Source: Deltaproteobacteria bacterium (GTDB lineage: Bacteria > Myxococcota > SpSt-1050). Taken from it: 35,664 nucleotides of DNA. The stretch covers positions 1-35,664 of the forward strand of contig JAOAFA010000001.1 in assembly GCA_026416535.1 (NCBI GenBank), read 5' to 3'. Each line of letters starts with the position of its first letter. Position 1 is the stretch's first letter. This document shows, in pieces, positions 4,340 through 35,664 of the stretch. The notes under the pieces are model-generated. The model had not been told where the DNA came from. It did no database searches and saw only the letters and a program-made list of their open reading frames with translations. Made by a program: the position numbers and the translations under genes.

Positions 4340-4364
4340 ACCTAAACCTCCGTTACATAAAATC

Positions 4365-4393
4365 ATTATACAAAACATACAAATTAAAATCAA
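4365..4393 (-). promoter_or_regulatory. Sigma70-like promoter of the lipoprotein/VWA operon
   Basis: On the minus strand a -35 TTGATT (4388-4393), a 17 bp spacer and a perfect -10 TATAAT (4365-4370) lie upstream of the lipoprotein start at 4339. Transcription should begin near 4358, giving a short leader that contains the GGAGG site. Confidence 0.75.
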
Positions 4394-20479: not shown

Positions 20480-21379
20480 ATGATTCACAAAAGTAAAAAA
20501 AATAGATATCTTTTAACAGCAAATAGTGGGTCAGACAGTATCTCTGTTATAGACTTAAAAAATTTTAACGTTGTAAACAACATTAAGTGTGGAGAATACC
20601 CAATGATGTTGGAAACAACCCCGAATAGAAAATATCTCTTTATAACAAACAGAGATAGTTGTGATGTCTATGTATTCGAACTGCCTCAAATAAGATTCCT
20701 AAAAAGGATAAAGGTCCAAAGTGGTACAGCCGGAATTGCCTCTACACCAGATGGAAAGAGACTATATGTAGCAAATGAATACTCTCATACAATTAGTATA
20801 ATTGATATTAACAACTTAAGATTAGAAATGACCTTAAAAATAGGGCACGGTCCCTGTGTGGTGGTCTCTTCAAGATCTGGAAAATTCATAGCTGTTACTT
20901 GTGAAGAATCACACAATATTTCTATAATAAATAATAGCGACCTTAGCGTATCCCATTCCATCAATATCTGTGAAGGACCTCTTGGATTAACAATTACACC
21001 AGATGACAAGGAATTATACACTGCAGACTTTTTATCAAATAGAATTGCTTGTATAGATACTGAAAATCTCAAGATAAAAAATTATTTAGAGGTCGGTACC
21101 GTTCACATCGGAATCAAATGCTCTCTGGATGGAAGATATCTCTTTGTCTCAAATTCTGATAGTGACTATATATCAGTAGTTGATGTAAGAAATCAGAAGG
21201 AGATCAAAACTATAAAATGTCAAGATAGTCCTTCGGAATTTGCTATCTCGGATGCAGGAGATACTCTTGCGGTAACAAATAGAGCTTCTGGGACAGTATC
21301 TCTCATAGACATAAAGAGATTAAAGAAATTTAAAGACATTAAAGTAGGAACCAACCCCCTAGGTATAATATTCCTGTAG
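20480..21379 (+). CDS. Cytoplasmic seven-bladed YVTN/YncE-type beta-propeller
   Basis: Protein of 299 residues made almost entirely of seven repeats of about 41-42 residues with the YVTN pattern. Examples are YLLTANSGSDSISVIDLKN, RLYVANEYSHTISIIDINN, YLFVSNSDSDYISVVDVRN and TLAVTNRASGTVSLIDIKR. Seven units make a closed propeller with nothing left over. There is no signal peptide, whereas many YncE-like proteins are exported, so this one should stay in the cytoplasm. Several blades have a Cys in the same loop (IKCGEYP, ICEGP, IKCQDSP). It is the first plus-strand gene of the radical SAM cluster, 40 bp before the next gene, and has its own strong promoter. It could be a scaffold, a sensor or a substrate of the neighbouring enzymes; none of these is shown by sequence. 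Confidence 0.88.
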   Translation: MIHKSKKNRYLLTANSGSDSISVIDLKNFNVVNNIKCGEYPMMLETTPNRKYLFITNRDSCDVYVFELPQIRFLKRIKVQSGTAGIASTPDGKRLYVANEYSHTISIIDINNLRLEMTLKIGHGPCVVVSSRSGKFIAVTCEESHNISIINNSDLSVSHSINICEGPLGLTITPDDKELYTADFLSNRIACIDTENLKIKNYLEVGTVHIGIKCSLDGRYLFVSNSDSDYISVVDVRNQKEIKTIKCQDSPSEFAISDAGDTLAVTNRASGTVSLIDIKRLKKFKDIKVGTNPLGIIFL

Positions 21380-21383
21380 CCTG

Positions 21384-21412
21384 TTGATAATACAATGAAT
21401 ATGTGATAAAAA
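21384..21412 (+). promoter_or_regulatory. Possible internal promoter of the radical SAM operon
   Basis: TTGATA (21384-21389), a 17 bp spacer and TAAAAA (21407-21412) lie in the 40 bp gap before the ATG at 21420, which is 7 nt after the -10 box. As before, no Shine-Dalgarno sequence is seen. The weak -10 box and AT-richness limit confidence. Confidence 0.33.
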
Positions 21413-21419
21413 TTATAAC

Positions 21420-23195
21420 ATGAGCTTCTCCATACCCATCGAAGGTAAACTAATAAATGTAACCAATAAATGCAATCTACGTTGTAGTTTCTGCACCATA
21501 AAATCAAAAGAGGAACCTAAATTAGACCAGATTCTGCACACAATAGAAGGGATCAAACCAAATTCAAATATTATATTGGGTGGAGGAGAAGCACTCATAA
21601 GAAAGGATATTTTTACAATTTTAAATATTCTTTACCAAAAGAATGTACATATAGCTATAATAACTAATGGGAGAATATTTGTTTACGACGAATTAGTTAA
21701 GAAGGTCATAAGATATTCTGACACTTTTATTTATAGCCCTTTTCTAACTAATAAAGGGTTATACTCAAGATTTACAGGTGTAAAGGAAGCATTTGCACAA
21801 AGCCTTAATGGTCTTAAAAATCTACTCAGGATTAAGAATAGTAATGTGGAGTTGCGATTTCCTCTTAATCAACTGACTATTACTCACTTATCTAGATTGG
21901 AAAATACACTAAAAACTCTCACCAATAACCAGATTTATATAGTCTTTACCCTCTCTGGTTTTCTTTCAAATGAGAATCATCGAATATTCAGTAAAATACT
22001 GATAAGCCCTAAGCTATTCGATAAGGTTAAAATATATTCTAAAATTTTCTTTGAAGATATCCCTTATTGTATTCATGAGAAGGAGACACACATCCATAGC
22101 CATAGATTTCAATATCTAGATAAAGTCGATACCACCTGCCCATTGATTATTAAAAATACAAAATACAAAAAGTTACTAATATGCACTGAATGTATTCATG
22201 ACAATTTATGTAAGGGCCTAGTATGCACTTTGGATAGCCAACAAGTGACTCACTACATCAAACCTATCAAGGGTGTCAAAAGTAATTCGTTTGACTACAT
22301 TAGACTAGACAAAGAAATAGATATTAATAAACCTACTAAAAATTGCGAAATTTACCTACGTTATCCATTCGACAATCCAAATAGATATTTATTTTTGAAT
22401 ACTAAAGGCAGGACGTACCTGTATTATACTGATACTAATAGCTTTTCCGACGATGACATTAAGAGGACGAAGATAGAAAGGCAGCAGTTATATATTGATA
22501 TAAGCAAAAAGACTGCTCTCGATGACTTTCGTAGAGATATTAAACAATTAAAGCTGGATACCTTTTGTGAAACGTGTTCAAATATCGATAGGTGTGCTGC
22601 ATTTTTTTCTGTTTCTAATGATTTACCCTTTGCAAGGGAGGAGAGATGGCTCAAGGAGGAGATAAAAAGGTTAAAGGGGAAGGTCCTTGACGTAGGTTGT
22701 GGAGACATGAGATTTTATAAAGATCTAATTAACAAATTGTTGTCTGAAAAAAAAATAGAATATTTCGGCATTGATATAGAACAAAATTCCCTCAATGAAC
22801 TAAAAAAAGAGATTCCATATGCAATAACAATAAAATCAGCTATTGAGGAATTTTCATTTGAGGATGAATACTTTGACTACATTTTTCTACTCAGATCTTT
22901 AAATCACTTCTATGATGTACATAAGGCATTCAATAATATCTCAAGATTGGTTAGAAACTATGGTATGATAATTATTGCTGAGTGTGTACCATTTGCGTTG
23001 TTAAGGGATCCCAAGAAAATAGAATTAGTTAGAGATTCATCGAGACCCCTATTTGAACACTACAGGAACTGGAGTTCTGAGGAGTTTATTCAATTTATAA
23101 GACAAAATAAATACCCCTTTAAACTCGACACGCACAAGCCCGTTCAAAAGGGGACGAGTAATCAATGGATTATAAAGCTTATGAAGATCAAATAA
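21420..23195 (+). CDS. Radical SAM enzyme fused to a SAM-dependent methyltransferase
   Basis: Two-enzyme fusion of 591 residues. The N-terminal radical SAM domain (about 8-240) has CNLRCSFC (Cys18, Cys22, Cys25), GGGEAL (54-59) in place of the usual GGEPL, and AIITNGR. Two further cysteine groups follow: IPYC plus CTECIHDNLCKGL near 215-265, and CETCSNIDRC (383-392). These may hold auxiliary Fe-S clusters, as in SPASM/twitch proteins. From residue 420 a class I (type 11) methyltransferase begins: VLDVGCG is the SAM loop, YFGIDIEQNSL the acidic strand, and FDYIFLLRSLNHF motif IV. The protein therefore probably performs a radical step and an ordinary methyl transfer on one substrate. The substrate is unknown. 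It is followed 1 bp later by the next radical SAM gene. Confidence 0.88.
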   Translation: MSFSIPIEGKLINVTNKCNLRCSFCTIKSKEEPKLDQILHTIEGIKPNSNIILGGGEALIRKDIFTILNILYQKNVHIAIITNGRIFVYDELVKKVIRYSDTFIYSPFLTNKGLYSRFTGVKEAFAQSLNGLKNLLRIKNSNVELRFPLNQLTITHLSRLENTLKTLTNNQIYIVFTLSGFLSNENHRIFSKILISPKLFDKVKIYSKIFFEDIPYCIHEKETHIHSHRFQYLDKVDTTCPLIIKNTKYKKLLICTECIHDNLCKGLVCTLDSQQVTHYIKPIKGVKSNSFDYIRLDKEIDINKPTKNCEIYLRYPFDNPNRYLFLNTKGRTYLYYTDTNSFSDDDIKRTKIERQQLYIDISKKTALDDFRRDIKQLKLDTFCETCSNIDRCAAFFSVSNDLPFAREERWLKEEIKRLKGKVLDVGCGDMRFYKDLINKLLSEKKIEYFGIDIEQNSLNELKKEIPYAITIKSAIEEFSFEDEYFDYIFLLRSLNHFYDVHKAFNNISRLVRNYGMIIIAECVPFALLRDPKKIELVRDSSRPLFEHYRNWSSEEFIQFIRQNKYPFKLDTHKPVQKGTSNQWIIKLMKIK

Positions 23196-23196
23196 T

Positions 23197-25467
23197 ATGA
23201 GAATAACCTTTATAAACCCTCCGATTAAATTAGGAAAAACGTATGCACATTATCCTCTCTTCTCTAACCTCGGAATGCTTCAGAATGCGGCCCTTCTTGA
23301 AAAGGCTGGTCTTAGCGTTTGCATTGTAGATGCCTTTTTTATAACTGAGAATATTAACTTTAGACCAATAGACAATGATCTTTTTCATTTGGGTGCAGAG
23401 CTCCATTATCTTGAAAAACTAATAAAAAATAATAACTCCGAGATCTTCATAATACCAATAACTATGTTTTCTGATGTAACAAAGTTACAAGAGACCTACA
23501 TAATAGAAATATGTGATATCATTAAAAGATTACATAGAGATTCTATATTGATTGCCGCTGATTGCTACATTTGTGGAATGAACTACTTTGCGTATGATTC
23601 GGCACTGCTTTTGAGATCCATAAAATCTATTGATGTCAATCTAAAAGGCGAGACAGACATAACCCTTTTGAACACTGTCATTCATATAAAAAAATACGGC
23701 ACATACGATCTACCTTACGGCACGTACAGACACAAAGGAGAGATCATTCAAAAAGATGACATAAACTATTATCCTACAAATCTCAATACTTTACCATACC
23801 CCGCCTTTCATCTTCTTGAAATGAATAAATACTTCAACATACTAGGAGAAGCAACCAGATTAGACCTAATTCACGAATATCATGCACCGGAGAGATTTTT
23901 ACCACTTATGACCAGTCGTGGGTGTTTATATTCATGCAACTTTTGCACACAACAGGTCCTTAAAATGCCATATAGATATTATTCCAATGAATACCTAATA
24001 AAAGAGATTAGATATTTCAAAAACAAGTACAAAGTAGATAGATTCTTATTTCTTGATAACAATATTAATGCTGAGAGCAAGAGGTTTGATGAGCTTGTTA
24101 CATTTCTATCAAACAACAATATTTCATGGGATGCTGTAAATGGTTTCAGAGCCGATAAGCTCAAAAGAGTTCATATAAAAAAAATAAAGGCTGCTGGGAA
24201 CAAAAAGCTTACCATATCCGCAGAGTCTGGGGATCCTGAACTCTTGAACAATGTAATTACAAAAAACTTAAAACTTCAAGCTGTCATAAACGTCGCTAAA
24301 TGGACAAATGAACTAAAATTTCCGTCCCAAATCCATTATATAATAGGTATGCCAGGCGAAAATATAGAAAAGATGAATAAAACTCTGGAGTTCGCAGAGA
24401 TGCTATTCGAAAAATACAAGGCTTGGCCATTGCTTCAACATGCCATACCTTTTAGAAATACCAGTCTCTACAATCTCTGTAAAACAAACAATTACTTCGC
24501 TAAAGACCCAGATAAAACACCAACACATATTCTTGAAACACACCCAATTATAAGGACAACAGAGTTTTCTGAAAGGGACGTACTAACAATTAAAAAGCAT
24601 TTTATTAATAAATTTAAGTTCTACGAAACTACCTCCTACATTATTACCAACAATTCATGTAACAATAACTGTCTACATTGCGAAATATCTGATAGATTAA
24701 ATAAAAAAAGCATTAGTAAAAGAAAAATAAAATGCCAGATTCAAACAGCAAATAAAAACGGCCAAAAGAATCTAATAATAATTGGAGGAGAACCTACAAT
24801 CAATAATGAAAACCTCTTCTTTGCACTGAAAGAGGCAAAAAGGCTTGGTTTTCAGAATATAGTCCTTACTACTAACGGTAGGATGTTGGCTTACAGAGAG
24901 TTTACTAGAGAGATCTTGAGATTAGGTATAAATCAGATCTCAATCTCTATAAACTCAATGGATTCTAAGACACATGATCACATTACTTCGGTAAATGGCT
25001 CATTCACTCAAACCATTAGTGGAATACAAAACCTTCTCTATTTAAACTTCAAAAACATCAATATAAATATAAGAGTAACATCTATAAATCAAAATCACAT
25101 TGAAGAGATAATCAAAATACTTAGCAGCTCCAACATACACAATTTCTACATCAGGATTGCACTACCCCTTGGAAAATTAGCCCAAAATCCATCGCTACTA
25201 CCTGATTTAAAATCTTTATCATCCACGATAAACCGAATATTAGAAAAATACAGGGATGATCTAAATATACAGATTAAAGGTTTACCATATTGTTTAATTC
25301 CTGAAAGATTTTTAAATAACCTAAAGTTCTTCCCCTTATTGTACGCCAATGAATATAGAAGGCTCAAAGTCAAGATCCCAAAATGTATAAGTTGTGTACA
25401 CTATATTTCATGTCTAGGATTTTTTAGGCCAGAATTCAGCAAATACTACAATCAAGAGATTCAATGA
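23197..25467 (+). CDS. Tandem fusion: B12-binding radical SAM plus second radical SAM domain
   Basis: Protein of 756 residues with three parts. A cobalamin-binding-like domain (about 1-165) begins MRITFINPP and has KGETDITLL where GEGE is usual, but the typical GGP strand end is replaced by ADCYICG (121-127). The first radical SAM domain has CLYSCNFC (Cys243, Cys247, Cys250), followed by FLFLDNN and SAESGDPELL. The second radical SAM domain has CNNNCLHC (Cys488, Cys492, Cys495), GGEPT (530-534), the segment PYCLIPE, and a C-terminal KCISCVHYISCLG (729-741) likely to bind another Fe-S cluster. The second half resembles the separate radical SAM protein at 32919-34160. Reaction unknown; B12-radical SAM proteins are often methyltransferases at unactivated carbon or phosphorus. 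The stop overlaps the next start by 4 bp. Confidence 0.88.
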   Translation: MRITFINPPIKLGKTYAHYPLFSNLGMLQNAALLEKAGLSVCIVDAFFITENINFRPIDNDLFHLGAELHYLEKLIKNNNSEIFIIPITMFSDVTKLQETYIIEICDIIKRLHRDSILIAADCYICGMNYFAYDSALLLRSIKSIDVNLKGETDITLLNTVIHIKKYGTYDLPYGTYRHKGEIIQKDDINYYPTNLNTLPYPAFHLLEMNKYFNILGEATRLDLIHEYHAPERFLPLMTSRGCLYSCNFCTQQVLKMPYRYYSNEYLIKEIRYFKNKYKVDRFLFLDNNINAESKRFDELVTFLSNNNISWDAVNGFRADKLKRVHIKKIKAAGNKKLTISAESGDPELLNNVITKNLKLQAVINVAKWTNELKFPSQIHYIIGMPGENIEKMNKTLEFAEMLFEKYKAWPLLQHAIPFRNTSLYNLCKTNNYFAKDPDKTPTHILETHPIIRTTEFSERDVLTIKKHFINKFKFYETTSYIITNNSCNNNCLHCEISDRLNKKSISKRKIKCQIQTANKNGQKNLIIIGGEPTINNENLFFALKEAKRLGFQNIVLTTNGRMLAYREFTREILRLGINQISISINSMDSKTHDHITSVNGSFTQTISGIQNLLYLNFKNININIRVTSINQNHIEEIIKILSSSNIHNFYIRIALPLGKLAQNPSLLPDLKSLSSTINRILEKYRDDLNIQIKGLPYCLIPERFLNNLKFFPLLYANEYRRLKVKIPKCISCVHYISCLGFFRPEFSKYYNQEIQ

Positions 25468-26855
25468 AAACACTACTTTTACACATTCCGCAAATAAACA
25501 ATGGGAAAAGAGAAATAATGGTAATACCAATGGGACTATTCTCAATAGCAGATTATTTATATAAAAACGACATTGACGTTAGAATACTACATTATGGAAT
25601 ACAAAAAGAAATAGAGGAAAGCTTTGACCTCAATAGATTTATAAAATACAATAAATATAAATTAATCTGTCTTGATATACATTGGATAAAACAAGCTAAA
25701 CAAACAATAGAGTGCATTAAGTTCATTAAATCAAACTCCCCGGATATCATAATTGTCGTTGGTGGCATAAGTGCTTCATACTTTGCCGATGAGTTACTAA
25801 AAACAATACCAGAAATAGATTTCGTAATTAGGGGTGAAGGGGAATATCCATTGTTAAGATTAATTAAAGCGTTAGAGTCTAATAGACATTCATTTCAAAA
25901 CATACCTAATCTCTCCTATAGAATAGAAAAAAATATAAAACACAACAAAGTTACATTTTATACCGATGCCAAGTTTTATGAAGAGATAAGTCACTCCAAT
26001 TTTAAACTGTTAATTAATTATGACAAATATTTTAACAGGTTATTATATGCGGATTTTGACACATCAAAAAGATTCGGGATCCGAGATTCATACAAGAACG
26101 CATTTTTCTACAATCCTGGCAAGGGGTGTCCCTATAACTGCATTTACTGTGGTTCACATTTTTATAAAAAAAGTTACATTAAGCAAAAAAAAGGCTTTTA
26201 CTTTTTTAGTCTGAAAAAGGCCATCAGTGATATTTGTAATTCATATTCCTATAGGATAGATGTATTAAGGATCTCTTTTGATCCAGATCCTGAAAGAAGA
26301 TATTATATAAGGCTCTTCAATGAATTACCCAATTCTTTAAAGAAAAAAATAAGATTAATCTTCGATTGTTTTACATTACCCAGTGAAGCATTTGTAAAAT
26401 CAGTCACGAGTCACTTTAGAGATGATTCAACACTTATAATATCCATGGAGACCGGCAGTGACTATGTAAGAGGTAAAATTAATAGACCCTACTTCACAAA
26501 CCACGAATTGATACAGAGTCTAAAAAAAATTTTGAAATACCCCCTCAATATTCACATTTTCTTATCATTTGGCTTACCGTTTGAGAGAAGTGAGGATTTT
26601 AAAAAGACTCTCGAGATATTGAACACAATAACGAGATTAAAGAATATTGGAATAACAATATGTCCCATTATAGTTGATATAGGTTCCCAAATGTATGAAT
26701 TCCCTTCAAAATACAATGTATCAATTTTATACAACAAATTTTCTAATTGGGCATTAGAAGAGATTTCTGATGATAGAACTTACTATAAGACTACCTTCTT
26801 ATCCGAGGTAGATATATTAAACAGCATAAAGAGCCTACGCAATAGTTATGAATAA
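25464..26855 (+). CDS. B12-binding radical SAM protein
   Basis: Protein of 463 residues with the standard class B order. The N-terminal cobalamin-binding fold (about 1-140) has LICLDIHWIKQAKQ, VVGGISASYFADELL and FVIRGEGEYPLLRLI. The radical SAM core from about 215 has CPYNCIYC (Cys222, Cys226, Cys229) and SMETGSDYVRGK. The long basic segment after the cysteine motif (FYKKSYIKQKKG) is notable. No DxHxxG cobalt-ligand motif is visible in the B12 domain, as in many members of this class. Substrate unknown. It overlaps both neighbours (4 bp and 8 bp), so it is translated with them. Confidence 0.87.
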   Translation: MKTLLLHIPQINNGKREIMVIPMGLFSIADYLYKNDIDVRILHYGIQKEIEESFDLNRFIKYNKYKLICLDIHWIKQAKQTIECIKFIKSNSPDIIIVVGGISASYFADELLKTIPEIDFVIRGEGEYPLLRLIKALESNRHSFQNIPNLSYRIEKNIKHNKVTFYTDAKFYEEISHSNFKLLINYDKYFNRLLYADFDTSKRFGIRDSYKNAFFYNPGKGCPYNCIYCGSHFYKKSYIKQKKGFYFFSLKKAISDICNSYSYRIDVLRISFDPDPERRYYIRLFNELPNSLKKKIRLIFDCFTLPSEAFVKSVTSHFRDDSTLIISMETGSDYVRGKINRPYFTNHELIQSLKKILKYPLNIHIFLSFGLPFERSEDFKKTLEILNTITRLKNIGITICPIIVDIGSQMYEFPSKYNVSILYNKFSNWALEEISDDRTYYKTTFLSEVDILNSIKSLRNSYE

Positions 26856-28224
26856 CAAAAGGAATGTCAACTTAGTCTGTCTTTTCAAAGGATTGAGTGT
26901 AAGTCCATCTACCACAGAATTAGGTGGTTATGTCGATGTCATGCTATCAGAACCTTACTCACTTGCAACTGCATATCTAAAAGCCTATGCAATCAAATCC
27001 AACATCGTTGAAAAAAATTACAATATACATCTACTTAACTTAAAAGACGATGGAAAGGGAACAATAGATTTAGTAAGTTATCAAAACGAGTTTCTATCAA
27101 AGATCCTATCAAATAATCCTATTGCCATTGGTTTTTCGACCTACTGTTGGAATATTGATACAACTCTTATTCTAATTAAAAAGATTAAGAAGATTAGACC
27201 CAACATCAAGATAATTTTAGGAGGCAAGTATGCACTCTTAGAATACCTTCTAAGGTATCCAGAAATCGATTTTATTATAAGGGGCGAAGGTGAAATAGCA
27301 TTCAAGACTCTACTCGAAAATCACCTAAATAAAATAAACATAAAAGGAATTTCATTTAAGATACAAAACAGACTAATAGATGGCGGTGAAGGCGATATAG
27401 TTAAAGATATTGATGATATACCTTCACCTTTCACAGAAAATATAATTATCCCAAACCAATATAATATGATGATTGAACTATCACGTGGATGTCTAAACAA
27501 TTGTGGTTATTGTAATTGGAACTCAAACAAGAGTTTAAGATACCATTCTAAGAAAAGGATAAAAGAAGAAATTATGTACGCAATAAGTAGAAAAGTTAAA
27601 CACATCACCATAATAGACTCTGCCATCAATTATAATATAATACTGTTAAACAGATTCTCTAATATCATTAAACACTCCCCAAAAAACCAATTGACCTTTA
27701 GCTATAATTTAAGATATGAACATATAGACGATAATCAAATCAAATATCTAAAAGAGATACCTTCATTTCAAGTTTTAGTAGGACTTGAGACAATAAACCA
27801 CAAAGCGCTCAACACTTCTAATAGATCACAACTGAACATACCACTCTTTGAAAACTCGATTAGATTAATTAGCAGTTATTGCTCTCCACTTATCGGAATA
27901 ATTTTGGGTTTACCCAATGATAATCCTAATGAATTCAAAAAAACTTTACACTTTGTTGAAAACCTAAATAAAAGGTTAAATCATAAAATAGGTGGAGTAT
28001 TAGTATCCTTACTACAGGTCTTTCCCAATTCATTATTATTTGCACAAAGAGATAAATATAAAATAAAAACTCATAAAAAAGGTGTACCTTATATTATATC
28101 CAATATCACATGGAATAGAAATCAATTGAGACTTATCTACTCTTGGTTAAAAAATTTCTCCCAAAAAAGCAGTTTGAAAATAAAGGGTATAGAGGGTGGA
28201 TGGACAATTGAAAAAAGAAGATAA
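26848..28224 (+). CDS. B12-binding radical SAM protein, GFSxYCW subfamily
   Basis: Protein of 458 residues. The B12-binding part (about 5-160) includes AIGFSTYCWNIDTTLILI (93-110) and EIDFIIRGEGEIAFKTLLE, a pattern known from DUF4080-type B12-radical SAM proteins. The usual GGP motif reads GGKYAL (125-130). The radical SAM core has SRGCLNNCGYCNW (Cys215, Cys219, Cys222, Trp224). It resembles the proteins at 29907-31265 and 31258-32922 in these motifs and in the late GVPYIIS segment, so the three are paralogues. It is the last gene of the plus-strand operon; no terminator is visible after it. Confidence 0.86.
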   Translation: MNNKRNVNLVCLFKGLSVSPSTTELGGYVDVMLSEPYSLATAYLKAYAIKSNIVEKNYNIHLLNLKDDGKGTIDLVSYQNEFLSKILSNNPIAIGFSTYCWNIDTTLILIKKIKKIRPNIKIILGGKYALLEYLLRYPEIDFIIRGEGEIAFKTLLENHLNKINIKGISFKIQNRLIDGGEGDIVKDIDDIPSPFTENIIIPNQYNMMIELSRGCLNNCGYCNWNSNKSLRYHSKKRIKEEIMYAISRKVKHITIIDSAINYNIILLNRFSNIIKHSPKNQLTFSYNLRYEHIDDNQIKYLKEIPSFQVLVGLETINHKALNTSNRSQLNIPLFENSIRLISSYCSPLIGIILGLPNDNPNEFKKTLHFVENLNKRLNHKIGGVLVSLLQVFPNSLLFAQRDKYKIKTHKKGVPYIISNITWNRNQLRLIYSWLKNFSQKSSLKIKGIEGGWTIEKRR

Positions 28225-28274
28225 AAAACTTACCCTTCTCACTATCTAATACTCAAATTCTAAAACTAAAATAA

Positions 28275-28342
28275 CTTAGATATGAAAAGATATGACGTAA
28301 AGAGGCGAACAAAAACATCTTTTATCGCAAGATATATCTAAG
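28275..28342. repeat. 9-bp inverted repeat between the convergent radical SAM operons
   Basis: CTTAGATAT (28275-28283) and ATATCTAAG (28334-28342) are exact reverse complements with a 50 nt loop. This is in the 213 bp space between two convergent operons. The GC content is too low and the loop too long for a standard terminator. Its role is unclear. Confidence 0.35.
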
Positions 28343-28437
28343 ATTAAGTTTACTAAGGTATAAAAACACATTTTTGCATGAGTATATATTCAAAACATGT
28401 ATTAGAGTGATCAGTTCTTAACCAATTATATGGTCAT

Positions 28438-29910
28438 TCAGTATGTTCTGCCTAAGAATAGGTAATCTTTATTATATTTAATAAGAATTCTATGATAGTC
28501 ATCAAGCCTTCTTTTAACCTCTTTCTCAGAAATATCATATATGAATTTTTCTGGGAACTCACCACTCTTTTTAATAATATCCGATATCCATTTTGGCATT
28601 GGTGGTAATGATTGATCATTATAATACTTGATCTTAATATTATACCTTAGTGGATTTAAGGCTGTAAACGAACCAAGAGATAGATAAAACGGATTTGGTG
28701 AAAAATAAATATTGTCAGAAATTCCATACAACTCCTCAAGAACCCTTAAGTTTACCTCATGATCCTCTCTTTTTTCACCTGGAAAACAAGTTAATAGATC
28801 AAAATGCATTGATATACCATAATTAACACAATACTTTATTGTATTTATTACCGCTTCTACATTTGTTGGCCTTCCCATTAGCCTCAAGACGTTTTCAGAG
28901 AAACTTTGAACTCCCATTTTTAACAACACACAACCAGACTCCTTCATCTTTTCCACTCTTCTCTCATTTAAGCCATACGGTGTACAAAACGACTCCCATT
29001 TACAAACACTATTCAGTCTTGTTAGCTGATGCAAAAACCTATCAAACCAGTTCAGGTTTGCATTAATAGAATCGTCATGGAAATGAAAATTGGAGATATT
29101 GTACTTTCTACTTTGAACCACCATTTCATTTATAATCTCCTCAACAGCCCTTACCCTATATTTGTTCCAATAATTAACCTCAGAACAGAATCGGCATCTA
29201 TGTGGACATCCCCTCCCAGCAATTATCGGTATAAAATCTTTTATTACAATTCCTTGAAAGTTGAGCACCCGTGGTTTACTGATATCACAATTATAATATT
29301 TACCACTACCAATAATCTCATTACCATCTTTGTAATAAAGCCCTCTGAGATCCTTTATCCCTTTGTCATCCATATTTCTAAGTAACTTCACAATTATTTC
29401 CTCTCCTTCACCTATTATCACGTAATCATACACATCTGAGAAGAGGGAGAACATAGTAAAAGGCAAGAAGTGGACCGTTGGTCCGCCACCGATAGTAAAT
29501 TTACCATGTCTTTTTAATCTCTTTGCAAGCGCACATGAAAAATACATTGTCAAGACGTTATTTGAGAAAATAAATACATCTGCAATATCCTTTACCCGTG
29601 AAAAATACTCGTTTACCTTCTCTAAAATTATTGATGAAATGTTATCTTTAAACCCAACATCATCCGGAAACACAACACCTAAAAGCAATCTTAGATCTGG
29701 CATATCGCCCACATGCCCAACTTTCTTAGATAGATAATTAATAATCTTACCATAAAAATCCGTCTTGTTTTTGTCTTCCTCATAAGAAATATCTACAAAC
29801 TTAACATCAAAACCACTTTCTAAAAGAGCTGTTTGAAGATAAATAAGCCCTATATTTCTGAATGGAACTTCCCCATGTGGTGGACTGTGTATAATTGCAA
29901 CCTTTCTCAT
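28438..29910 (-). CDS. B12-binding radical SAM protein
   Basis: Protein of 490 residues. The N-terminal cobalamin-binding-like domain starts KVAIIHSPPHGEVPFRNIGL and carries FTIGGGPTVHFLP (138-150) and YVIIGEGEEIIVKLL. An extra segment of about 40 residues around 60-100 enlarges the domain. The radical SAM core has GRGCPHRCRFC (Cys235, Cys239, Cys242), FHFHDDSINANLN and LLKMGVQSFSENVL, and the C-terminus extends about 110 residues past CFPGEKREDHEVN. It differs from the three GFSxYCW paralogues. It is the last gene of the minus-strand operon, with an ATGA overlap with the gene upstream. Reaction and substrate unknown. Confidence 0.87.
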   Translation of the reverse strand: MRKVAIIHSPPHGEVPFRNIGLIYLQTALLESGFDVKFVDISYEEDKNKTDFYGKIINYLSKKVGHVGDMPDLRLLLGVVFPDDVGFKDNISSIILEKVNEYFSRVKDIADVFIFSNNVLTMYFSCALAKRLKRHGKFTIGGGPTVHFLPFTMFSLFSDVYDYVIIGEGEEIIVKLLRNMDDKGIKDLRGLYYKDGNEIIGSGKYYNCDISKPRVLNFQGIVIKDFIPIIAGRGCPHRCRFCSEVNYWNKYRVRAVEEIINEMVVQSRKYNISNFHFHDDSINANLNWFDRFLHQLTRLNSVCKWESFCTPYGLNERRVEKMKESGCVLLKMGVQSFSENVLRLMGRPTNVEAVINTIKYCVNYGISMHFDLLTCFPGEKREDHEVNLRVLEELYGISDNIYFSPNPFYLSLGSFTALNPLRYNIKIKYYNDQSLPPMPKWISDIIKKSGEFPEKFIYDISEKEVKRRLDDYHRILIKYNKDYLFLGRTY

Positions 29911-31265
29911 TTACCCTCTAACAACTCAATATAATATTCTTCGCAAAAAAATTTAACATTTTTCTCTGTCTCACGATATACAAAGTCAGCGACTCTTAAT
30001 AACTCTTTTGCACTCATATATTTGCTTGAAACCAAATATGGAGTACCTTTTTGGAGATATTTAAAACCATATTTTTCTGCCTCCCTTTCGAACCTTGTCC
30101 CCGGCAATATCGCTAACCAAAATGAACACACAAAATTTATATAATCTGGGTACTTATTAATCAATTCTTCTAAATATTTTATTGTTTTTTCAATGCCCTT
30201 ATAAGAATCCTTAGGTAATCCTGTTATGATACTGATTGTTATTTTGTTTCCCATCTCTCCAAGAACCTTTATAATTCTTTCAAATTTTTCCCTGCTGAAA
30301 GGAGGCTTCCCGCACTCCTTTAGCACTGCATCATTTATCGATTCAAGTCCAATTATTATCTCATCAAACCTAAGCCCGTCAATCATTTTTATCTGAGTCT
30401 CATCTATCCTATCATACTTCATAAAAACAGACAGAGATAATTTTTCATATACATTACTCAATCTCAATGAATCAGATATAATGCTCAATTGTTCATTGGT
30501 CATATTTATTGACGTATCCGAAAAATTAATTTTTCTATAACCTCTCTCGTAGGACCATAAAAGTTCGTTAATAAGCATGGATTTATTCTTAATATTCAGT
30601 TTTCTATCTTTTGACCACGAACAGAACTTACATCTATAAATACATCCTCTCGAAGGTTCAATCATAATTGCATCAGAGTTTGGCAAATAATTATCAGATA
30701 GGTAGGGAGATAATAAATTATTAATATCAACATTATTGTTTTTAGGGTTTCTAATAATAGAATCACCACATCTAAAGACAATACCCCTAACCTTATCCAA
30801 GTCTTTAAAATTATGGTTCAGCAGTTCGGAAAATGTCTCTTCTCCGTCTCCTACAACTATAATATCAATATCTTTGTTGTTTTTGAGAATATCAACCGGA
30901 TTATATGACACAGAGGGTCCCCCTAAGAAAATCTTTACACCTTTATTTTCTCTCTTAACACTACGGGCAGTATTTTCAAAAATGTGTCTATTCCAACAAT
31001 AAGCTGAAAATCCTATAGCAACAGGAGATTTATTTAATATCTCCGCGATTTGCCCTTCACTCAAATTATCCATCTTCCTTGTTACTGGATAATCAACAAT
31101 CTCCACATCAAAACTATTCCTTCCCTTTATGCCCCTATTAGCTTTTAAGATAGCAACCGCATAATTATATGTTTTAGAGGCAAAATCTCTTTTATTATCT
31201 TTATAGGAGTAATTTATTGAATGTTCAGCGGGGGTTCCTGCAACAAGTATAACTTTCCTACTCAT
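29907..31265 (-). CDS. B12-binding radical SAM protein, GFSxYCW subfamily
   Basis: Protein of 452 residues. The cobalamin-binding domain includes AIGFSAYCWNRHIFENT (83-99), KIFLGGPSVSYNPVDIL and IIVVGDGEETFSELL. The radical SAM core has PSRGCIYRCKFCSW (Cys208, Cys212, Cys215, Trp217), then KINFSDTSINM and IIIGLESINDAVLKECG. The late segment KGTPYLVSSKYMSAKEL is shared with the next gene upstream (RGMPYVLSSGVFSRDDM). It overlaps that gene by 8 bp and the following gene by 4 bp. It probably acts on the same pathway or molecule as its paralogues. Confidence 0.87.
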   Translation of the reverse strand: MSRKVILVAGTPAEHSINYSYKDNKRDFASKTYNYAVAILKANRGIKGRNSFDVEIVDYPVTRKMDNLSEGQIAEILNKSPVAIGFSAYCWNRHIFENTARSVKRENKGVKIFLGGPSVSYNPVDILKNNKDIDIIVVGDGEETFSELLNHNFKDLDKVRGIVFRCGDSIIRNPKNNNVDINNLLSPYLSDNYLPNSDAIMIEPSRGCIYRCKFCSWSKDRKLNIKNKSMLINELLWSYERGYRKINFSDTSINMTNEQLSIISDSLRLSNVYEKLSLSVFMKYDRIDETQIKMIDGLRFDEIIIGLESINDAVLKECGKPPFSREKFERIIKVLGEMGNKITISIITGLPKDSYKGIEKTIKYLEELINKYPDYINFVCSFWLAILPGTRFEREAEKYGFKYLQKGTPYLVSSKYMSAKELLRVADFVYRETEKNVKFFCEEYYIELLEGK

Positions 31266-32922
31266 TTCTTGAAATTTCAGCTAACAATTTAGAACAGATG
31301 CCCTTCAAGTCTTGATTATATCTAGGATTCATGTCATTGCCAACCAAAATAGAATACTTCTTCGAATTGAAAGGACCATTAGCGATCTTATTATATATTT
31401 TCAATATAATCAAATTATTATCAGACTGATTTCTGAATTTTAACACAGGGTATTCATGTTCATACTCAATACTATCTAACCTCCAACTTTTATAGTAGAG
31501 AGAACCTATAGTACACGTTGGGATTAGACCTTTTAAATTTATTATATTTTTTCTTATGTATCTTTCTCTACATTCAGGGAGTAGATCAAATGATTTGATT
31601 TCATTGTAAAATACCTTGGGATTAATATCCTCCCAAATAAATAGTTCTTTATATGGATGATCTTGAATGTACTCTAAAGAACTTATCATATCATCTCTTG
31701 AAAAAACCCCTGAAGACAACACATATGGCATTCCCCTCAATGAATATTGTATATTGTATTTGCCAACTTCGTATGACAATCTTGAACCTGGTGTCACAAT
31801 AGTCCAAAATATTCTTATTCCAATAATCTTTTCTCTACCAAATTTTTCTACAAGATTAATTACATAATCTATGGTATTTTTAAAATCCCTCCCCGTCTCT
31901 GTCGGGATTCCAAACATCACAGAAATCATAATTGGTCCAACATCTGTGATACTATCAACAAACTTCATAAAATGACTCTTATCAACGGGTCTACGCCCAA
32001 GAGATAAGGAAGCCTCCCTGGAAACGCTCTCAAGACCTACTAATATACACCTAGCATTAATGTTTTTTAATAACTCCTTATGAATATTATTCCACCTAAA
32101 GTGGTCAACAAAATATGTAAATGATAGGTCCGGGTTTAGCTTACAACTTTTAACAGCCCATATTAACTCTTTTAATCTCTCAGTATTGCTATTTATAGCT
32201 GAATCATAAATGAAGATATGCCTGTAATTATTCTGCTTAGCCCACATCAACTCTTGTCTAACCCTTTTTTTGCTAAAATATCTTATTCCACCACCGGTGC
32301 TCTTCCACGCACAATGTTTACATTTATTACTACATCCCCTTGAAAAACCCAGCATCAAGTTAGTCTCTCTTGGCTTTAACAGACCCTCTATAAAAGGGGA
32401 AGGAAGTAAATCTAGATTCTCTACGGGCTCTATATGGCCATTGAAACATAACTCCTTACCCCTTCTAAAAATTAACCCCTTAAGATTAGAGACATCTCCT
32501 TGGGACCTAATTATATCAACAAGTGTCTTCTCACCTTCACCAACAACAGCAAAATCTATCTCTTCATTTTCTTGCATCAATCTAAGCCCTTCAAATGTGG
32601 CAGTAGGACCTCCCAACACAATCGTTGAATTACTATTTCTTTTAACTTGTTTTATCAATTTAATTACTATATCTCTATCCCAGCAATACGACGAAAAGCC
32701 ATATAAATGAGCATTTAACTTGCTAATCTTTTCCTCATACTCTTTTGGCAATTTACTCATTCCAACACAAATTGGTATGTCAATAATCTCAATATTTAAA
32801 TCTAAATGCTTAAATGCATTTCTCAAATAGGCTGCCAAAAAATAGATAGCAATATTATACTGAGCTGGATTGTTTATCTGTGATTTGGGAACAATGTTTG
32901 TTCCAATTAAGGCGATTTTCAT
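31258..32922 (-). CDS. B12-binding radical SAM protein with extra C-terminal module
   Basis: Protein of 554 residues, about 100 longer than its paralogues. The B12 part has LYGFSSYCWDRDIVIKLI (73-90), IVLGGPTATFEGLRL and FAVVGEGEKTLVDII. The core has FSRGCSNKCKHCAW (Cys197, Cys201, Cys204, Trp206) and CILVGLESVSREASLSLGRR. After the shared RGMPYVLSS segment (about 385-393) a C-terminal extension includes LIILKIYNKI and KKYSILVGND. This tail resembles the C-terminus of the DUF483-like protein and the N-terminus of the radical SAM protein in the same operon, and may be a shared substrate-recognition part (inference). ATGA overlap with the gene upstream. Confidence 0.87.
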   Translation of the reverse strand: MKIALIGTNIVPKSQINNPAQYNIAIYFLAAYLRNAFKHLDLNIEIIDIPICVGMSKLPKEYEEKISKLNAHLYGFSSYCWDRDIVIKLIKQVKRNSNSTIVLGGPTATFEGLRLMQENEEIDFAVVGEGEKTLVDIIRSQGDVSNLKGLIFRRGKELCFNGHIEPVENLDLLPSPFIEGLLKPRETNLMLGFSRGCSNKCKHCAWKSTGGGIRYFSKKRVRQELMWAKQNNYRHIFIYDSAINSNTERLKELIWAVKSCKLNPDLSFTYFVDHFRWNNIHKELLKNINARCILVGLESVSREASLSLGRRPVDKSHFMKFVDSITDVGPIMISVMFGIPTETGRDFKNTIDYVINLVEKFGREKIIGIRIFWTIVTPGSRLSYEVGKYNIQYSLRGMPYVLSSGVFSRDDMISSLEYIQDHPYKELFIWEDINPKVFYNEIKSFDLLPECRERYIRKNIINLKGLIPTCTIGSLYYKSWRLDSIEYEHEYPVLKFRNQSDNNLIILKIYNKIANGPFNSKKYSILVGNDMNPRYNQDLKGICSKLLAEISRNE

Positions 32923-34160
32923 AAACCCACACTTTTATAGTATTTTAAAGGCAACCCTATACAATAAAAATTATGATTACACACTTGGCACTTTTCTGTC
33001 TTTATCCACCCATCCATTTTATTCTCTGCATAGGACCTGGCTTTAATTTTACTTAGCTTCTTTCCTATCTTCCGTGCAAGATTTACAGGTAAATAACAAA
33101 ATGGTATGGAGGCATGGGTTGAACTTATTAAGGACTCGATAGGTATATTATATTCTTCCATTAATGGCAAAACATTATCTACTATTTCCTCATAGGAGAC
33201 GATATACCTTTCCAGATTGTTTCTGTATTCGGGAAGAATGAGAACAGAAAAATTAATCTTTGCCTTTTTACCAAACAGAAAGTAAAACTTTTTGAGATAA
33301 GACTCCATATCATTACAATTATACCTATTAATCACAACATTTACAATAATATCATATCCCCTATCCAAAATATTCTTAATGCCTTTTATTGCCCTATCTA
33401 ATTGTCCTTTTGAAGAAGTTATAATATCATATACCTTTGGATCCAACGAATGTAATGAAATAAAAAACTGCAACCTATTGGAATAAGGAAGAGAAGCTAA
33501 AAAGCCTTTATTGGATAACACCACTGCATTGGTTTGAATTCTTACAATTGGAGCCTTTGTGTTTATTAAGACCCATTCCACAAATGAAGAAAACTCAGGT
33601 CTTAGAGTAGGTTCACCTCCTGTAATAGTTACTTGGAATCTATTTTTCCTAGCAAGATTTAAAACTAAACTCTTTAACACATCAATATCAGGATCCTCCT
33701 TGATTATTGGTGAAGAACAAAATTCACATGCCTGATTACATCTCTTTGTAAATCTGATAAGCAATTCGGAATCCTTGCCCTTTTCTTCGTAAGACAAGAA
33801 GGGAATTATGTCCGAGATTGAGTCTGGCTCAAAAGTGTAATCTTCATAAATATAAATAACATGTCCTGTCTTAATAAGTTCATTTCTATAGGGGTGAATC
33901 AGACTAATTAGACCGCTAACAAACTTGTCAATACCTTCAGATTTTTTAACAACTTTTCCTATATATCTATACCGATAACCCACCCCATCTAAGACCTTAA
34001 AAAATCGGTCACTTCCTTCAGGCTTAAGATCTACTTCAAGCATAACATTGTTCTTAAAGCCAATACTGATTTTGCCTGAATATGAAAAGAAAAAATCAAT
34101 TAAACAATATTTCTCAGATAACGCACTTATAAGTCTGAGGTAGAAGGGTCTATCTTTCAT
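32919..34160 (-). CDS. Radical SAM protein with C-terminal Cys motif
   Basis: Protein of 413 residues without a B12 domain. Residues 1-90 form a small module (LEVDLKPEGSDRFFKVL, YRYRYIGKVV) resembling the tails of two neighbouring proteins. The radical SAM core has CNQACEFC (Cys141, Cys145, Cys148), ITGGEPTLRPEF (179-190), RIQTNAVVL and ISLHSLDPKVYDIITSS, typical of MoaA/SPASM-like peptide- or protein-modifying enzymes. Near the end come IPFCYLP and KCQVCNHNFYCIG (390-402), probable ligands of an auxiliary Fe-S cluster. The same C-terminal layout is seen in the second half of the fusion protein at 23197-25467. It overlaps the upstream gene by 11 bp. The target is unknown. Confidence 0.88.
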   Translation of the reverse strand: MKDRPFYLRLISALSEKYCLIDFFFSYSGKISIGFKNNVMLEVDLKPEGSDRFFKVLDGVGYRYRYIGKVVKKSEGIDKFVSGLISLIHPYRNELIKTGHVIYIYEDYTFEPDSISDIIPFLSYEEKGKDSELLIRFTKRCNQACEFCSSPIIKEDPDIDVLKSLVLNLARKNRFQVTITGGEPTLRPEFSSFVEWVLINTKAPIVRIQTNAVVLSNKGFLASLPYSNRLQFFISLHSLDPKVYDIITSSKGQLDRAIKGIKNILDRGYDIIVNVVINRYNCNDMESYLKKFYFLFGKKAKINFSVLILPEYRNNLERYIVSYEEIVDNVLPLMEEYNIPIESLISSTHASIPFCYLPVNLARKIGKKLSKIKARSYAENKMDGWIKTEKCQVCNHNFYCIGLPLKYYKSVGL

Positions 34161-35664
34161 CTTCTATAACTCTTAAGACAAGATTGGCTGCCTCTTCAGC
34201 CAATGTTGCGTTGTCATCACTCCTGCCGATAGACACAGAATATTTCCTGCCCTTTTTAAAATATTTGTCCGAATTTTTAAGGTTTTGTATTCTAATTTCA
34301 ATACTCTTCCCATCTTTAGCGAGGTACAAGATGACCACATTCCTCTCTACGGACTTATCAACTATCTTGTAGCCGTATCTGTTAAATACTGCATGCCTTG
34401 TCTCAATTTTTTCATAAAGATCCGAATACTGAGACACAAACACATCGCTCTTCTTGCCAAATTTTCGGTTATAAATCACAGACTTGTAATATGCCTCACT
34501 AAATTCTCTCCAAAATTTATAATCAAGAGGCTTTTTATAATACCAGACATTCGCCTCGGCGCAAAAAGTATGAATATGTCTTCTTCCCTTATAAAGTTCC
34601 ATAAACCCATCTTTCATCACAAGTTTATCTGAAGCAAGGATATATTTAAGCCGTTTATCATTACCAGAGTATAATATTGGTTTATATGAAAACTCATCAT
34701 CCACATCCGACAGCGGTTCAACAATTACATATCCAAGGTTATCTTTAAAATCACTTAGGTTTGGATCAAAGGGAAGAAGAAAAACAATAGGTAAGTCTGT
34801 GTATTTTAAGGCGTCGTAACCAGTTAATCTTTTTGTAATATTATTTCTAATAATTACGAACTCCTCTGCTTTTTTACAACTCAAACTACACGGAATAAAG
34901 AAAAAATGATCACTAAAGGGGGTTAAGTTTTTGGATATAATGGAACTTCTATATCTCAACAGTAGTAAGAGAAAAAGATAGTTATCAAAAAGATAATACA
35001 TCTCCCTATGATAATAATTAGAACAACAATGAGGATACCCAAGCAATTTCGCAATCTTATGATAGTATTTATTATTACTTTGGCACTCCTCAAAAATTCT
35101 AGGATCAACCGAGTTTATATTAAAATTATTGCTATAAAAAATGTTCTTATTTTGCACATTGTTAAATTTGCCAGAGGTGATCAGATAGTATTTGTGGTAT
35201 CTTTTGACATAGTTTAAATGCCGTTCAAAGGCAATGTCATCATTAAATTCGGCCTTCCCTATTCTTCGAAGTCTGTAACGCTTCATGAATTCAGCCTCTA
35301 TTTTATAAAACATATCTGGTTTTATCTGTGAAATATAGCTGAAATCACTCTCTTGCCTTAAAGATCTCATTTTAGAAAATCCCTCTAAATACCTAATAAC
35401 CTTATCCAGATTAATTGAGTCATCTTTAATTAAATATCTATTAACTTTTTCCACTGATCGACTTTTGTATCGCCATGGAACCTCCTCTTTATAAAAATTA
35501 TATCTGGCTGTATAATAATTTTCTCTTTTATATTTATCTACTATTAACCCCTCATTTCTGACCAAATAATACAGGGGGAGTTCTTCGTAAAGCCTTAGTC
35601 TTGATGTAAACAGCTTGCCACAGACATTTTCAATTCCAAGATACTTTATCAAATGATAATTCAA
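34150..35664 (-). CDS. DUF483-like Cys-motif protein, 5'-truncated at window edge
   Basis: Open through the right edge, so the N-terminus is missing; the apparent first codon is a TTG at the very last base and is unlikely to be the real start. The visible 504 residues contain LLGYPHCCSNYYH (208-220; Cys213, Cys214) and FFIPCSLSCKKAEEF (255-269). This GYPxCC...PCSxxC pattern resembles the DUF483 family from memory; its function is undescribed and the cysteines suggest metal or Fe-S binding. The last 80 or so residues (EIRIQNLKNSDKYF, KYSVSIGRSD) form a module resembling parts of two neighbouring radical SAM proteins. Codons are strongly AT-rich. The stop overlaps the radical SAM gene by 11 bp, so the proteins are made together. 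Confidence 0.75.
   Translation of the reverse strand: MNYHLIKYLGIENVCGKLFTSRLRLYEELPLYYLVRNEGLIVDKYKRENYYTARYNFYKEEVPWRYKSRSVEKVNRYLIKDDSINLDKVIRYLEGFSKMRSLRQESDFSYISQIKPDMFYKIEAEFMKRYRLRRIGKAEFNDDIAFERHLNYVKRYHKYYLITSGKFNNVQNKNIFYSNNFNINSVDPRIFEECQSNNKYYHKIAKLLGYPHCCSNYYHREMYYLFDNYLFLLLLLRYRSSIISKNLTPFSDHFFFIPCSLSCKKAEEFVIIRNNITKRLTGYDALKYTDLPIVFLLPFDPNLSDFKDNLGYVIVEPLSDVDDEFSYKPILYSGNDKRLKYILASDKLVMKDGFMELYKGRRHIHTFCAEANVWYYKKPLDYKFWREFSEAYYKSVIYNRKFGKKSDVFVSQYSDLYEKIETRHAVFNRYGYKIVDKSVERNVVILYLAKDGKSIEIRIQNLKNSDKYFKKGRKYSVSIGRSDDNATLAEEAANLVLRVIEDER

Follow-up and report, generated by a model that had tools for sequence, protein, structure and literature searches.

What do the radical S-adenosylmethionine (rSAM) enzymes encoded side by side on contig JAOAFA010000001.1 act on? 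This stretch of 35,664 nucleotides, here called the window, comes from Deltaproteobacteria bacterium (assembly GCA_026416535.1; GTDB Myxococcota, SpSt-1050) and makes up all of contig C93; the metagenome-assembled genome (MAG) has 134 contigs, a size of 2.96 Mb and a completeness of 98%. The cluster consists of ten genes, p1 to p10: a beta-propeller gene (p1), eight contiguous rSAM genes (p2 to p9; 21420-34160) with nine CX3CX2C motifs among them, and a gene for a DUF483 protein (p10). We conclude, with a probability of roughly 0.78, that these genes form an accessory arm in the maturation pathway of an enlarged His-Xaa-Ser (Hxs) system, the precursor of which is encoded in trans, because the same genome has hxsA4 and hxsB as well as a double hxsC4-like gene and because the p2 family co-occurs with, and adjoins, hxsA4.

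Genes p1-p5 (20480-28224, plus strand) and p6-p10 (28438 to the end of the contig, minus strand) converge on a 213-bp gap, and most neighbouring genes within the two runs overlap, by 4, 8, 4, 8, 4 and 11 bp. Across the genome, Radical_SAM has 53 matches at E≤0.001, and this 13 kb alone accounts for nine of them; thus, the rSAM density in the cluster is far above the genome background. All of p2-p9 except p4 pass the curated Pfam Radical_SAM cut-off, and none of these proteins reaches the cut-off of an NCBIfam rSAM model; therefore, each enzyme lies outside the curated families. A preliminary description of this DNA had reported the eight rSAM genes, the nine motifs, the two tight convergent runs, the propeller and the DUF483 protein, all of which we confirmed. 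At the cluster the G+C content falls from 0.385 to 0.325, and this drop, in a MAG assembly, could point to a chimeric contig or a set of unrelated stand-alone enzymes. However, the genes overlap, the reading frames are unbroken, the conserved families recur jointly in relatives, and the MAG itself contains hxsA4; we therefore regard this explanation as highly improbable. By contrast, the earlier proposal of a dedicated modification pathway is well supported by the co-occurrence of the families across relatives.

Searches of the 195 genomes with the p2 and p3 families pointed to larger loci, and clustering of the unannotated proteins from these loci yielded a protein of 114 to 238 residues ending in 'CSHGSHGS...HGSW' as well as HxsD-like proteins; the NCBIfam names of the two are HxsA4 and HxsD. 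In the genome that carries the window (G000), an operon-like run on contig C83 (L043:4787-8795) encodes an HxsD_rel-like open reading frame, HxsB, HxsA4 and a double HxsC4-like rSAM protein. HxsB, the gene for which adjoins hxsA4, scores 535.5 bits with TIGR03978 (cut-off 370), and HxsA4 scores 82 bits with NF038313 (cut-off 55); the latter protein has a leader-like N terminus followed by H-(G/A)-S units and terminates in HGSW. The 645-residue double enzyme contains two HxsC-like rSAM domains and scores 185.6 bits on the HxsC4 model against a cut-off of 500. The 67-residue open reading frame upstream of hxsB is below the HxsD_rel cut-off (22.2 versus 41 bits), while HxsD proteins in the related clusters pass TIGR03976. 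This locus is probably the substrate locus of the window cluster. Moreover, p2, p3 and p9 are themselves HxsC-like by model similarity, scoring 59.9, 89.3 (C-terminal half) and 85.6 bits, respectively, against an HxsC cut-off of 267.9. The preliminary description had seen no precursor and no recognisable class, which holds for the window but not for the genome, in which C83 carries HxsA4, HxsB and the HxsC4-like double enzyme.

The co-occurrence of these families in other genomes had been suggested as a check, and it bore the proposal out. A DNA pattern of five H-(G/A)-S units matched 18 of 195 genomes of the phylum, and 16 of these matches were judged genuine; the single hit in G104 and the HGW repeat in G094 were not taken for HxsA4. 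The p2 family was likewise present in 16 genomes, 15 of which also have hxsA4 (Fisher p 2.6e-20). The p3 family, the p3 architecture being found in 14 genomes of the phylum, was present in 12 of the 16 hxsA4 genomes (p 3.6e-14), a nitrogenase-like A subunit in 11 (p 1.1e-12) and the p10 family in eight (p 2.5e-9); phylogeny is ignored in all four p values. The family sets rest on cut-offs that we chose ourselves: the p2 matches in G041 and G044 are partial and lie at or near contig ends, a weak p2 match in G001 was left out, and weak nitrogenase-like A matches were included for G038 and G041. The distribution of hxsA4 and the p2 family is patchy and extends over seven GTDB families.

The families are not only found together but also lie together. 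hxsA4 and p2 are on one contig, at most 19 kb apart, in 12 of the 15 genomes with both, and p2 is adjacent or nearly adjacent to hxsA4 in G002, G005, G014, G020, G034, G038 and G041; similarly, hxsA4 and p3 are within 9 kb of each other in 7 of 12 genomes. Contig C95 of G014 has, in about 13 kb, a p9-like gene, nitrogenase-like B and A, a double HxsC gene, p3, p2 and hxsA4, and contig C127 of G034 has the end of hxsA4, p2, HxsC-like genes, a p10 family gene, B, A and NifH. On a single strand of contig C102 in G005, genes for a NifH-like protein, B, A and HxsA4 are arranged head to tail and are followed by p2. The co-occurrence might also reflect the shared ecology of rSAM-rich anaerobes, the cluster then belonging to a pathway for a lipid or another specialised metabolite that has no relation to the peptide; the B12-type rSAM enzymes of the window do also score with the HpnJ, ladderane-type and KedN5 families. 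However, all of these scores are far under the family cut-offs, and ecology does not explain why p2 adjoins hxsA4 in seven genomes, which makes this alternative quite unlikely. The preliminary description had left the choice between a natural product and a protein target; the peptide option is now favoured, HxsA4 being encoded in the genome and homologues of window genes lying beside hxsA4 in relatives.

Several observations weigh against an accessory arm of the Hxs system. The window contains no HxS repeats, and none of its genes matches an Hxs family model at its curated cut-off. The precursor gene and the window genes are on different contigs; the four hxs-related loci of the genome (C93, C83, C84 and C114) are all on separate contigs. 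Sister genome G001 has hxsA4, a nitrogenase-like pair and DUF483 but lacks a full-length p2 or p3. Moreover, the hxs loci contain only distant counterparts of p5, p7 and p8, none of them a clear one-to-one partner, and p1 has no relative among the related loci, so its membership in the cluster is uncertain. The neglect of phylogeny in the Fisher p values counts on the same side.

Nitrogenase-like proteins recur in these loci. Our search of the genome with PF00148 gave a single A/B pair, on C114 (L051:16273-19378). A NifH-like Fe protein is encoded on C84 (L079:9279-10130); it scores 277 bits with PF00142 and has the P-loop GKGGIGKS and the CAGRG and VCGGFA motifs, that is, both cluster cysteines. 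A and B match solved nitrogenases, NifE/NifD and BchN/BchB, with PDB 9d9u/9fmg as the best match, and neither reaches an NCBIfam cut-off. Three cysteines are invariant across the pair, one in A and two in B, and in A the cysteine of the NifD/NifE 'TCxxxxxGDD' stretch is replaced. A true nitrogenase, with the full set of P-cluster and FeMo-co ligands, is thus unlikely; the sequences point instead to a BchNB/CfbD-like reductase with one FeS cluster. A structure model of B was of low confidence (predicted local distance difference test score (pLDDT) 61.6) and was not used.

The resemblance of these subunits to BchN/BchB, NifE/NifD and other nitrogenase-family structures raises another possibility, namely that a new cofactor, metal-based or tetrapyrrole-like, is made by the rSAM enzymes, the DUF483 protein and the nitrogenase-like proteins, with HxsA4 as no more than its carrier, scaffold or user. 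Comparable pairings are BchE with BchNBL, CfbCD, and NifB with NifEN, and bacteriochlorophyll biosynthesis indeed combines a B12-rSAM enzyme with a nitrogenase-like reductase. Moreover, the rSAM loci G044:C10 (L142) and G002:C59 (L147) each have two nitrogenase-like D/K-type sets, reminiscent of BchNB plus BchYZ. However, among the few neighbours that were scanned with Pfam there were no chelatase or tetrapyrrole genes, and the p2/p3/hxsA4 clusters of G134, G136, G145, G146 and G148 had no matching nitrogenase-like A. Altogether, we consider cofactor synthesis improbable, though less so than the metabolite pathway. Most neighbours that lacked an identity in the related loci were left unidentified by Pfam.

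If the cluster is an accessory arm of the Hxs system, its enzymes are predicted to act on HxsA4. HxsB and HxsC-like enzymes would start the modification of the HxsA4 repeat region, which the window enzymes would then tailor. The B12-rSAM proteins (the N-terminal half of p3, p4, p5, p7, p8 and possibly p6) could methylate or rearrange unactivated carbons, p2 could link rSAM chemistry with the transfer of a methyl group, and cross-links or other SPASM/twitch-type changes could come from the HxsC-like domains (the C-terminal half of p3, and p9). The nitrogenase-like reductase would contribute an ATP-driven low-potential reduction to the same pathway. The most far-reaching form of this proposal is that the ATP-dependent reductase joins rSAM enzymes, some of them B12-dependent and perhaps twelve or more in number, in acting on a ribosomal (His-Gly-Ser)n peptide. 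No peptide or protein maturation system before it would have used nitrogenase-type chemistry; the product would be an extensively remodelled poly-histidine polymer that might bind metals or transfer electrons. We advance this form tentatively and give it slightly less than even odds.

Hxs is already a known type of system, with HxsA4 and HxsC4 models in NCBIfam, and the surprise is the link to nitrogenase. The Hxs concept is attributed to Haft and Basu (cited in PMC9062424). The loci described here share with the Hxs models (HxsA/B/C/D, TIGR03976-03979; HxsA4, NF038313; HxsC4, NF038332) the H-x-S repeat precursor and the SPASM rSAM protein HxsB, together with HxsC-like rSAM proteins and, in relatives, HxsD. 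However, those models describe two rSAM proteins, the small HxsD and a peptide, whereas this genome and its relatives add B12-rSAM proteins, an rSAM-methyltransferase and B12-rSAM/HxsC fusions, and also have a DUF483 protein and subunits resembling those of nitrogenase. Similarly, p4, p5, p7 and p8 share the combination of a B12-binding domain and a CX3CX2C barrel with OxsB, CysS, KedN5, HpnJ, BchE and PhpK, but the window proteins score far under the cut-offs of these families, and p10 relatives have a widely spaced cysteine motif. Relatives and this genome also resemble BchLNB, CfbCD, methylthio-alkane reductase and NifEN in having a NifH-like Fe protein with PF00148 A and B subunits; the differences are the three invariant cysteines, the N-terminal extensions on B and the location of the genes beside that of a peptide precursor. 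Our literature search, in which subscription journals were poorly covered so that the negative is a weak one, returned no paper that deals with the chemistry of hxs systems or that places nitrogenase-like enzymes in clusters for ribosomally synthesized and post-translationally modified peptides, and B12-rSAM proteins, rSAM fusions, DUF483 and a nitrogenase-like reductase were absent as parts of Hxs loci from the papers searched. The loci, many of them probably myxobacterial, offer a defined substrate, ordered enzyme sets and natural variants that either have or lack nitrogenase-like subunits, so that peptide modification by B12-rSAM enzymes and by a nitrogenase-type reductase can be tested directly. 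Should the peptide prove to be a substrate of the reductase, nitrogenase-family chemistry would reach ribosomal products in addition to small molecules and cofactors.

On the plus strand, p1 (20480-21379) encodes a 299-residue YVTN/Lactonase-type beta-propeller (TIGR02276, 162.6 bits; Lactonase, 85.8 bits) and is the first gene of its run. It is followed by p2 (21420-23195), a 591-residue rSAM protein with two further conserved cysteine triplets and, by Pfam, a C-terminal SAM methyltransferase; full-length relatives exist, and at E≤1e-50 the family is found in 17 of the 195 genomes. p3 (23197-25467, 756 residues) is a fusion of a B12-type and an HxsC-like rSAM domain with CX3CX2C motifs at residues 243 and 488. 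p4 (25464-26855, 463 residues) is a TIGR04190-like B12-binding rSAM protein (B12-binding, 59.5 bits) that scores 26.4 bits with Radical_SAM against a cut-off of 29.5, yet keeps the CX3CX2C motif. A 37% identical p4 relative adjoins the p3 relative in G005 and a weaker one lies directly after p3 in G020; thus, p3 and p4 relatives adjoin in these two genomes as p3 and p4 do in the window. The run ends with p5 (26848-28224, 458 residues), a B12-binding rSAM protein and paralogue of p7 and p8 (28-31% identity).

The minus-strand run ends with p6 (28438-29910), a 490-residue rSAM protein with a weak B12-binding domain (23.8 bits versus a cut-off of 32.1), a relative of which (28%) is encoded in G002 beside nitrogenase-like genes and hxsA4. 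Two further B12-binding rSAM proteins are p7 (29907-31265, 452 residues) and p8 (31258-32922, 554 residues), the latter with a C-terminal extension of ~100 residues. p9 (32919-34160) is a 413-residue HxsC/MoaA-like rSAM protein with an N-terminal domain of ~125 residues and has relatives at 36% and 32% beside nitrogenase-like genes. The earlier count of six B12-binding genes was roughly right: p4, p5, p7 and p8 pass the Pfam cut-off, p6 is sub-threshold, and for the N-terminal half of p3 the class is supported solely through similarity to B12-rSAM families.

p10 (34150-35664, minus strand) matches DUF483 (PF04467; 31.7 bits, cut-off 25), and its 5' end is cut by the contig end; by alignment it lacks about 350-360 N-terminal residues of full-length homologues from the phylum, and our search of the rest of the MAG did not find the missing part. 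The N-terminal domain of the homologues has a conserved 'GEECxY...GGCxFC' motif, C-X(about 22-28)-C-X2-C, the three cysteines of which may bind a cluster. One relative was modelled with AlphaFold (pLDDT 80.4), and the best PDB match of the model is the B12-rSAM enzyme OxsB (E 3.1e-9), followed by MtaB, MiaB and CysS. Because the model folds like OxsB, the p10 family is probably a tenth rSAM family, with a variant motif, fused to DUF483. Some p10 relatives adjoin further rSAM genes and two PF00148 proteins (A and B), and a scan of the genome collection with the DUF483 family returned only loci already in the query.

The C-terminal end of p8, the N-terminal end of p9, the C-terminal end of p10 and the N-terminal end of nitrogenase-like B (window 31258-32922, 32919-34160 and 34150-35664; L090:12611-14704) might share a domain of ~100 residues, strands followed by a helix. 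Such a domain would suit a pathway-wide substrate-binding module, but independent profiles supported it weakly (best hhalign E value 0.0026, no support from the other pairs), and it is a lead only; a comparison with HxsD did not bear out a relation. Small exported proteins of hxs loci, lipoprotein-like or signal-bearing (L085:15438-15935, L184:11754-12551 and L189:16215-16757), resemble this domain by eye and are possible product-binding proteins. Among the relatives, G079:C104 (L184:15351-16745) has a tandem pair of HxsA4-type genes, one with >50 HGS units. Very large rSAM arrays surround hxsA4 in G146:C58 (L085, L188) and G148:C6 (L084, L189): at least a dozen genes lie within about 35 kb, several of which have two rSAM domains, and these loci gave no nitrogenase-like match. 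Far from the cluster, the window encodes a 982-residue lipoprotein-like protein (1445-4393) that combines repeated Ig-like units with an NHL-type propeller.

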